A stretch of 64,000 nucleotides of DNA from Candidatus Pelagibacter sp. IMCC9063 (lineage in GTDB: Bacteria > Pseudomonadota > Alphaproteobacteria > Pelagibacterales > Pelagibacteraceae), in NCBI RefSeq assembly GCF_000195085.1, contig NC_015380.1, positions 1,040,001 through 1,104,000 of the forward strand. The letters run 5' to 3'. Position numbers and translations under genes: made by a program. Position 1 is the stretch's first letter; every line of letters starts with the position of its first letter. This document shows positions 29,339 to 63,427 of the stretch, piece after piece. The notes under the pieces are model-generated. The model was not told the DNA's origin, did not search any database, and saw only the letters and a list, made by a program, of their open reading frames with translations.

Positions 29339-29836
29339 TTATCTCCTTGCAACAATATCTTTAATTTTTTTTCCTCTAATTAAGGAAATGTCTTTTGGTG
29401 TTTGTTGACTACCTAGTGCAACAAAAACAGCTCGGATCAAATTATAAGGATTTGCAGATCCAATAGATTTTCCTACCACATCTTGAATACCCGACATTTC
29501 ACATATAGCTCGAACTGCTCCACCGGCAATAATTCCTGTACCAGCAGGGGCGCTTCTTAAAACTACCTTACCGGCTCCGCTCTTTCCCTTTACATCATGG
29601 TGCAAAGTTCTTCCGTCTCTTAAAGGTATTTTAATTAATGATTTTTTTGCAGCTTCTGAAGCCTTTTTAATAGCATCTGGAACTTGTTTGGCTTTACCCT
29701 GTCCATAACCTACTTGACCTTTTTGATTTCCAGCCACAACTAATGCTGCAAACCCAAATCTTCTTCCACCTTTTACTACTTTTGTAATTCTGTTGATGGC
29801 TACTAATTTTTCTTTAATCTCTGATACCTTGCTCAT
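29339..29836 (-). CDS. rpsE: 30S ribosomal protein S5
   Basis: S5 helps decoding accuracy and 30S assembly. The 165-residue protein has the double-stranded RNA-binding-like [20 protein letters not shown] near 11-30, [14 protein letters not shown], and [19 protein letters not shown]. Length is standard. It is followed directly by rplO without rpmD. Confidence 0.97.
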
Positions 29837-29838
29837 AT

Positions 29839-30180
29839 TTAAAACTTCAAACCTCCAGTTCTTGCTGCTTCAGCAAGTGATTTAACTCTTCCGTGATACC
29901 TATACGAACCCCTATCAAAAAATACTTCTTTGATACCTTTTTCTATGGACCGTTCAGCAATAAGCTTTCCTACAATTTTAGAAACCTCTGTTTTACTTTT
30001 TTTCTCTATATTTTTTTCTTTTGAAGATGCGCTAGCTATAGTTGAACCTTTTTTATCATCTATTAATTGAGCATAGATATTATTGAGGGACCTAAACACT
30101 GAAAGTCTTGGTTTACCGTTGTTTACTTTTTTTAACTTAGATCTGATTCTGCTTTTTCTAGTCAGGGTTTTATTTCTCAT
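29839..30180 (-). CDS. rplR: 50S ribosomal protein L18
   Basis: A 113-residue L18, a 5S rRNA-binding protein of the central protuberance. It has an Arg/Lys-rich N-terminus, then [20 protein letters not shown] near 23-42 and [26 protein letters not shown] at the C-terminus. It lies one codon-scale gap from both rplF and rpsE in the spc cluster. Confidence 0.97.
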
Positions 30181-48100: not shown

Positions 48101-49246
48101 TTGGAGGCTCACCTGGTCTTAAAACACGGTAAATATCCATACAAGCTTCATCTGAATTGTTGTTTTTGTCTACTACCAACGTATTTCTTAAGTAAGAACC
48201 AATATTCATTCCATCGATATCCGCAAGATAGAAAGTTTTGATATTTAAATGATTTAGCTTTTCTAATGTTTCTACAGTAATCTCATCGCCAGATTCAAAG
48301 TAAACTTCACCTGTTTTTTCATTAATAATATCACTAGAAAAGTATCTTCCATGAAGCTCTTCAAAATTAATTAAAATGTTTTTTAAACCTTCTTTTTCAA
48401 ACTTCATTGCCAAAGGTAGAGGAATTTTAGTTCCTTCTTTTACAACTTTTTTATTAGTATCTGCATTAATTAAATCAAATCTTATTTTGGAGTTTTTATA
48501 ACCAGATGCAATAAACTTTGTTTTGCATGTATTTTCATTAGTAAAATCAAATCTAATAGATTTGTGAAATAAGTTTAACAACTCATCTTTAGCATGACCT
48601 AATGCCATTAACAGAGTGGTAACTGGAATTTTTCTTTTTCTATCTATTCTAAAATATAAAATATCTTTAATATCGTACTCAAGGTCTAACCAAGAACCTC
48701 TGTATGGAATTACTCTACAATTAAATAAAAGCTTTCCGCTGGAGTGACCTTTTCCTTTATCGTGATCCAAGAACAATCCTGGACTTCTGTGCATTTGATT
48801 AACTACTACACGGTCCGTTCCGTTCACAACAAAAGTTCCTTTTTCAGTCATCAAAGGAACATCACTCATGTAAACTTCCTGTTCTTTTGCAGAAAGAATT
48901 TGTTTGGTTTGAGCTTCTTCGTTAATATCATAAGCAACTAATCGCAAAGTCACTTTCAATGGTGCAGAATAAGTTAAGCCTCTTTGCTTACATTCACCAA
49001 CATCATACTTTTCCTTTTCAAATCTATACGAGATATATTCAATAGTTGCATGACCTGCAAAATCTTCAATAGGAAAAACTTCTTTGAATACTTTATCTAA
49101 ACCAGAAACGGCTTTTTCTTCAGCGGATTTTAAAAAACTATTGTACGAAGACCTTTGGACCTCAATTAGGTCAGGTATTTTTAAAATGTTTTCTAACTTA
49201 CCAAAACTTTTTCTTATTTTTTTTTATCCGTAAAAGATAAATGCAT
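45168..49246 (-). CDS. rpoB: DNA-directed RNA polymerase subunit beta (frame broken by one base near the 5' end)
   Basis: The main open frame covers residues from [10 protein letters not shown] onward (1263 codons), but RpoB homology continues upstream to codons reading [19 protein letters not shown]. There the frame meets TAA inside a run of nine A residues (49217-49225). One A more would join it to an ATG at 49246 reading [10 protein letters not shown], giving 1359 residues, the normal alphaproteobacterial size. The rest is intact, with rifampicin-region motifs ([32 protein letters not shown] spans about two lines of the fork domain), [14 protein letters not shown] and GRTGE. Because the gene is essential, this is probably a sequencing or assembly indel, or less likely a slippage site. 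A stem-loop lies just before the start. Confidence 0.93.
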
Positions 49247-62660: not shown

Positions 62661-63427
62661 TCATTGTGCTGTCCATGCCCCGTCTAGCGAAATATTTGAT
62701 CCAGTAACTTGATCAGCTTCCTGAGAACATAAAAAAAATATCATTGATGCTATATCCTCTTTTCTAACGAATTTTAATGAAGGTTGCTTATCTCTTAACA
62801 TTTCTACCCTAGCATCAAGAAATGGAATATTTTTGTTTTTTGCAACTGCTTTAATTTGATCTTGGATTAGTTCCGTAAGGACAAAGCCTGGACATAAAGA
62901 GTTACATGTAATTGGATCTTTTGCAGTTTCTAGAGCTGTTACTTTTGTTAATCCAACCAACCCATGCTTAGAAGCTGTGTAAGCAGATTTATTTACCGAG
63001 CCAATTAAGCCGTGGGTAGAAGCTATGTTAACAATTCTGCCCCATTTATTTTTTCTCATAACGGGCAATAGCTCCTTTGTGAATAGAAAAGGAGTTGTAA
63101 GATTAATATCTATCATCTTTCTCCAAACCTTTTCTGGATACTTTTCAATAGGCATCACAAATTGAATTCCCGCACAATTAATCAGCACATCAATTTTTTT
63201 AAATTTTTTAAGAGAACTAGCTATTACTTTTTTAACGTTTTTAGAGCTTGTGAGCTCTGTATTGATAGTTAAAGATCTTTTTGAACTAAATTTTTTTTAA
63301 ATATTTTTGTATTATTGGCCTTAGCTATTCCAGCGGCAATAACGTTGAATCCCTTTTTGTAAAAAAGCTCAATGATAGAAAGCCCTATAACTCCTGTGCC
63401 GCCAGTAACCAGTATCGTTTTTTTCAT
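62661..63427 (-). CDS. bdhA: 3-hydroxybutyrate dehydrogenase, SDR family (frameshifted)
   Basis: A short-chain dehydrogenase that interconverts 3-hydroxybutyrate and acetoacetate. The intact part has NCAGIQF, IVNIAST (catalytic Ser region), YTASKHGLVGLTK (Tyr-x-x-x-Lys) and the family-typical end SLDGAWTAQ. The ATG at 63427 opens a second frame reading MKKTILVTGGTGVIGLSI, the Rossmann dinucleotide motif. This runs into a stop after an A8 tract (63291-63298); one more A would fuse the parts into 255 residues, the usual size. It is either a sequencing or assembly indel or a recent pseudogene. It is divergent from glnA. Confidence 0.8.

Follow-up and report, generated by a model that had tools for sequence, protein, structure and literature searches.

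The one-base frameshift that splits bdhA, the gene of a 3-hydroxybutyrate dehydrogenase of the SDR family, in Candidatus Pelagibacter sp. IMCC9063 is most likely an ordinary assembly artefact, that is, a consensus sequencing error, and we put the probability of this explanation at about 0.9. In the assembly an A9 tract would have been written as A8, and the frameshift would not be present in the DNA of the organism. The same length-dependent undercalling would also have produced a break in rpoB and further breaks elsewhere in the genome. The window analyzed here is a stretch of 64,000 nucleotides (positions 1040001-1104000) of a genome assembled as a single contig of 1,284,727 bases, with 67.8% AT over the surrounding 164 kb.

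The first frame of bdhA begins with the ATG at 63427 and reads MKKTILVTGGTGVIG...TKIFKKNLVQKDL, after which a stop codon follows. One frame over, translation runs uninterrupted from KKFSSKRSLTINTEL until it reaches the stop at 62661. The first-pass annotation had described the gene as split at an A8 tract by one missing A and had placed the event within 63285-63302. This interval encloses the tract, and the description holds, as A8 stands here against A9 and an intact frame in the ortholog of the metagenome-assembled genome (MAG) CP.1. The coordinates of bdhA, of its parts and of the companion site in rpoB are given in Table 1.

Table 1. Coordinates in the window of the split bdhA gene, its parts and the companion tract in rpoB.
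Feature	Position	Strand	Evidence
bdhA-like gene	62661..63427	-	aligns in two frames to the one frame of its CP.1 ortholog
frameshift site, A8 tract (plus strand: T8)	63291..63298	-	A9 in the CP.1 ortholog, one base longer
bdhA downstream of the tract, including YxxxK (shifted frame open)	62661..63290	-	NF009093, 259.4 bits (62661-63275 alone)
bdhA upstream of the tract, where the dinucleotide-binding fold begins	63299..63427	-	weak matches over 63293-63427
rpoB, A9 tract close to the 5' end that lacks one base for an open frame	49217..49225	-	rpoB of relatives in frame

The downstream part alone exceeds the cut-off of 258 bits of the 3-hydroxybutyrate dehydrogenase model NF009093. Its translation contains SAYTASKHG, with the YxxxK active-site motif of SDR enzymes. 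The upstream 45 residues were matched weakly by SDR models (best E 7e-5). The CP.1 ortholog matched NF009093 over its full length with 285 bits, and its best solved relative is the D-3-hydroxybutyrate dehydrogenase of PDB entry 2yz7. The cut-off of TIGR01963 (307.05) was missed by the CP.1 ortholog (281.3) and also by the downstream part of the window gene. The dinucleotide-binding motif of the window protein, encoded at 63383-63406 on the minus strand, is TGGTGVIG. Its V is common to all four genus copies seen, while more distant SAR11 BdhA proteins mostly have G at this position (TGSTSGIG, TGGTSGIG) and L012 has I. A second bdhA copy in the same genome was considered and rejected, as the search gave a single match at E 1e-40.

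For comparison of the reading frame, the 11 closest SAR11 copies besides that of the window were used (L007 to L018, where L010 denotes the same contig as L007). The closest relative, the CP.1 ortholog (L007), carries A9 at the site and an uninterrupted frame, and a full-length single frame was found in 10 of the 11 copies. The exception, L009 of the congeneric assembly G001, carries two frameshifts elsewhere in the gene. The break of the window gene is missing from all 11 relatives, none of which belongs to the same species. Relatives at 54% identity or more have titles like Pelagibacteraceae, Pelagibacterales and Fonsibacter; seven further loci with Pelagibacter-type titles at 28-34% identity (L038, L043, L051, L052, L058, L060 and L061) were left out of the frame check. 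Comparison of bdhA in related genomes had been proposed by the first-pass annotation, and its outcome, with A9 in CP.1 and an intact frame in nearly all copies, agrees with the loss of one A.

The same kind of event had been claimed for rpoB, and this was confirmed. At the site of the A9 tract, G001 has A10, while CP.1 and G002 have A8 followed by G, and all three are in frame. In the window, the shifted frame meets a stop directly before the conserved KKIRKSFG. The rpoB break is missing from 3/3 relatives with a match, none of the same species.

To see these two breaks in a wider context, the assembly was compared with the CP.1 genome (G004), the closest relative, which is a metagenome-assembled consensus. 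Sample 1 comprised 123 frames of at least 100 amino acids (116,655 coding bases) and sample 2 comprised 68 frames (61,416 bases), together 191 frames with 178,071 coding bases and 44% of the genome. Some pairs of sample 2 may be paralogs because only parts of both genomes were compared. We found 14 one-base frameshifts in 13 of the 191 frames, 13 of them deletions and one an insertion relative to CP.1 (p 0.002 against 1:1). Thus, about 7% of the compared frames are broken, with approximately one break for every 13 kb of the coding sequence compared. All 14 lie inside A or T homopolymer runs, the reported run being A7 in four cases, A8 in four, A9 in five and T6 in one. Reverse scans in both samples found no gene that is broken only in CP.1.

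The eight one-base deletions of sample 1 affect hemB (porphobilinogen synthase), pdxJ (pyridoxine 5'-phosphate synthase), rpoB, bdhA, a TrmJ-family methyltransferase gene, glmU, a phosphohexomutase gene and a histone-deacetylase-fold gene; the phosphohexomutase label comes from a scan of half of the gene with a score well under the model cut-offs. In sample 2, five deletions were found: an MBL-fold gene has two, and tsaD, hemE and ispZ/yciB, the gene of a septation protein, have one each. The two deletions of the MBL-fold metallohydrolase gene (L105) are separate A-tract events around G000:C1 163804 and 164007. The sole insertion is located in an A7 run around G000:C1 151212 (L104) in an aldehyde-dehydrogenase-like gene, a label taken from the sequence without a family search. 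A cell should not survive the loss of several of the genes rpoB, glmU, tsaD, hemB, hemE and pdxJ. The breaks are blind to essentiality, affecting rpoB, glmU, tsaD, hemB and hemE, and they are private to this assembly; since rpoB and other vital genes carry the same type of break as bdhA, dispensable genes are not singled out.

Several rows of the comparisons were excluded from these counts. In sample 1, we dropped a frame of 99 amino acids over the tRNA-Gly and tRNA-Tyr genes (93395-93659 in joined coordinates), which is no protein gene, frames at 96.3 kb and 129.1 kb that were seen only with G001, and a reverse G004 match at 29366-29908, which is an antisense frame of the hemB site. From the two G004 comparisons, 7 of 15 gaps were dropped (89255, 93363, 93380, 103439, 103448, 132817 and 132833), all of which lay within the initial 4% of stop-to-stop frames. 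In sample 2, 13 of 19 gaps (348145-348680 and 349202-349222) were dropped, which belong to two diverged genes and sum to a multiple of three; the reverse listing of this sample gave the same sites as the forward one plus end-of-frame gaps. One misaligned A7 row (7 against 0) was also removed. The comparison with G001 gave 137 gaps, which were not counted because this pair is too diverged for base-exact gaps, and the stretch of the window at about 47.45-48.7 kb falls between two G004 contigs and lies outside the G004 comparison.

The loss of bases depends on tract length. For A tracts in coding sequence with clean flanks in both genomes, a base was missing relative to G004 in 0/193 A7, 2/115 A8, 3/33 A9 and 2/7 A10 tracts (A9-10 versus A7-8, Fisher p 0.0003). 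Six of the kept breaks (rpoB, glmU, phosphohexomutase, deacetylase-fold, hemE and aldehyde dehydrogenase) are outside this table because the run of the relative is interrupted by G. T tracts (1/61 T7, 0/21 T8, 0/5 T9, 0/1 T10) were too few to show a rise. In an alignment of 183,847 bases at the DNA level, 8 of 323 clean A/T tracts of at least seven bases differed, and all eight were shorter in this assembly; this set overlaps with the coding events. A gross shortage of long runs was considered and rejected, as the run-length distribution of the assembly is like that of G004. The first-pass annotation had spoken of systematic homopolymer undercalling. Undercalling is borne out by the 14 breaks, spread over 13 of 191 frames: all but one are contractions, their frequency increases with tract length, and reverse scans gave no gene broken in the relative alone; "systematic" is too strong a word, since 193/193 A7, 113/115 A8, 30/33 A9 and 5/7 A10 tracts agree with the relative. 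As long runs show no overall deficit in the assembly, the pattern is better described as sporadic, length-dependent undercalling.

The first-pass annotation had also considered true decay of bdhA, regarding the gene as dispensable. This would make bdhA a genuine young pseudogene of this strain, formed by replication slippage in an A9 tract with no rescue. Dispensability has some basis: no match at E 1e-40 was obtained in two of six genus genomes (the window's own genome being one of the six, and one of the two being 79% complete), so bdhA may be dispensable. Selection and nonsense changes were analyzed in sample 1 only. The dN/dS of bdhA is 0.084, just above the upper quartile of the intact frames (median 0.045 and IQR 0.030-0.080 for 93 frames of 150 codons or more) and far below 1. 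Across the eight broken genes of sample 1 the values range from 0.036 to 0.162, which indicates that selection is still acting on them; three of the eight exceed the intact upper quartile (pdxJ 0.162, glmU 0.122 and bdhA), all far below 1. In sample 1, the shared frame holds no stop after codon 18 of the stop-to-stop frames. Judged by these sequence comparisons, the broken genes still appear to work or to have done so until very recently. For bdhA itself, no second lesion was found and no stop occurs across the 259 codons compared with CP.1, whereas other inactivating changes were what the first-pass annotation had associated with a real pseudogene. Together with the intact frame in 10 of 11 SAR11 copies and the like breaks in rpoB and other vital genes, this makes a young pseudogene most improbable, and the suggestion of true decay is not upheld. 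A true pseudogene was rejected on the lack of a second lesion and the continuing selection.

The two frameshifts in the G001 copy could be taken as a further sign of decay, and recurrent loss of bdhA in the genus was considered. In G001:C21 (L089-L096) and L009, bdhA and five other aligned genes are broken by indels of one or two bases, most of them not in long homopolymers, which is an error profile unlike that of the window's genome. As the five other genes carry such indels mostly outside long runs, the bdhA breaks of G001 look like assembly errors too, and recurrent decay was rejected.

A different possibility is that the base is truly missing but the cell copes with its loss: at the A tract, RNA polymerase would add an A, or the ribosome would slip back one position, and some full-length enzyme would be made. 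Such rescue has been proposed for Buchnera and Blochmannia, and in Blochmannia vafer eight genes, dnaX and dnaG among them, are described as having homopolymer frameshifts, which slippage may correct (PMC3017870). The AT-rich genome with its many long A tracts and the selection still acting on the broken genes would fit this idea. Also, MutS (PF00488) was found in none of the six genus genomes (one of them 79% complete), while the control search gave matches in 11 of 14 genomes. MutS thus seems to be absent from this SAR11 genus, which makes real tract instability plausible, be it tolerated or leading to a pseudogene.

However, CP.1 has the same kind of tracts and likewise no MutS match, and it has no private breaks; lineage-wide tolerated slippage was rejected because the scans revealed no gene broken in CP.1 alone. 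In some endosymbiont cases of the slippage type, related strains have the frameshift in common; here the break of bdhA occurs in 0/11 and that of rpoB in 0/3 relatives. Long uninterrupted tracts are indeed present at the breaks of bdhA (A8) and rpoB (A9), but for 5 of the 14 breaks, including that of tsaD, the reported run has only 6 or 7 bases, a length at which rescue by slippage should be rare, and the MBL-fold gene carries two breaks. A survey of transcription indels reports that no restored frame was detected (PMC5574713), and 13 of 191 frames far exceeds the share of the eight B. vafer genes as given beside 617 shared intact genes (PMC3017870). Rescue of bdhA by slippage is accordingly very unlikely, and the common tolerance of slippage offered by the first-pass annotation does not agree with an unbroken relative and breaks in short runs. 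The broader version, in which the breaks are real and a free-living SAR11 bacterium without detectable MutS lives by transcriptional or ribosomal slippage with dozens of A-tract contractions, rpoB included, deserves hardly any credence. If true, it would extend to free-living marine SAR11 a slippage-dependent life that has so far been proposed for insect endosymbionts.

With a sequencing error as the preferred explanation, we infer that the missing base is present in the bdhA gene of the cell; this gene should be unbroken, and its product an ordinary 3-hydroxybutyrate dehydrogenase. A homopolymer-prone platform probably stands behind the assembly; we take this genome to have been pyrosequenced (454). 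Some observations speak against an error. The 13:1 deletion bias exceeds what a symmetric miscall would give, the run-length distribution of the assembly looks normal, and the dN/dS values of bdhA, pdxJ and glmU are above the intact upper quartile. In addition, the metagenome consensus of CP.1 could hide strain-level breaks, which weakens this control somewhat.

IMCC9063 is described as one of two isolates that long represented SAR11 IIIa (PMC10030771). If about 7% of the compared frames are falsely split, false absences could arise for bdhA, hemB, hemE, pdxJ and glmU, and a falsely split rpoB could enter trees in truncated form. For AT-rich genomes sequenced in that period, this also cautions against taking frameshifts at A tracts as signs of slippage biology or gene loss.

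Compared with known BdhA proteins (NF009093, 2yz7), the CP.1 ortholog is alike over the full length and above the NF009093 cut-off; it differs in remaining under the TIGR01963 cut-off, and the window copy differs in lying in two frames. Homopolymer frameshifts in essential genes do occur in AT-rich endosymbionts, as described for Blochmannia (PMC3017870). The genome studied here resembles Buchnera and Blochmannia, with their poly(A) frameshifts, in its AT-richness, in single A-tract indels and in genes that are otherwise in frame. In contrast to these, about 7% of the frames are affected here, short runs are included, each break is absent from the relative compared, and the breaks are known from DNA alone. 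In 454 data, length-dependent under- and overcalls in homopolymer runs, mostly of one base, have been described (PMC3534400). The window's assembly, which presumably also comes from 454 sequencing, is like 454-era assemblies with homopolymer undercalling in that its errors lie in runs, rise with run length and mostly amount to one base.
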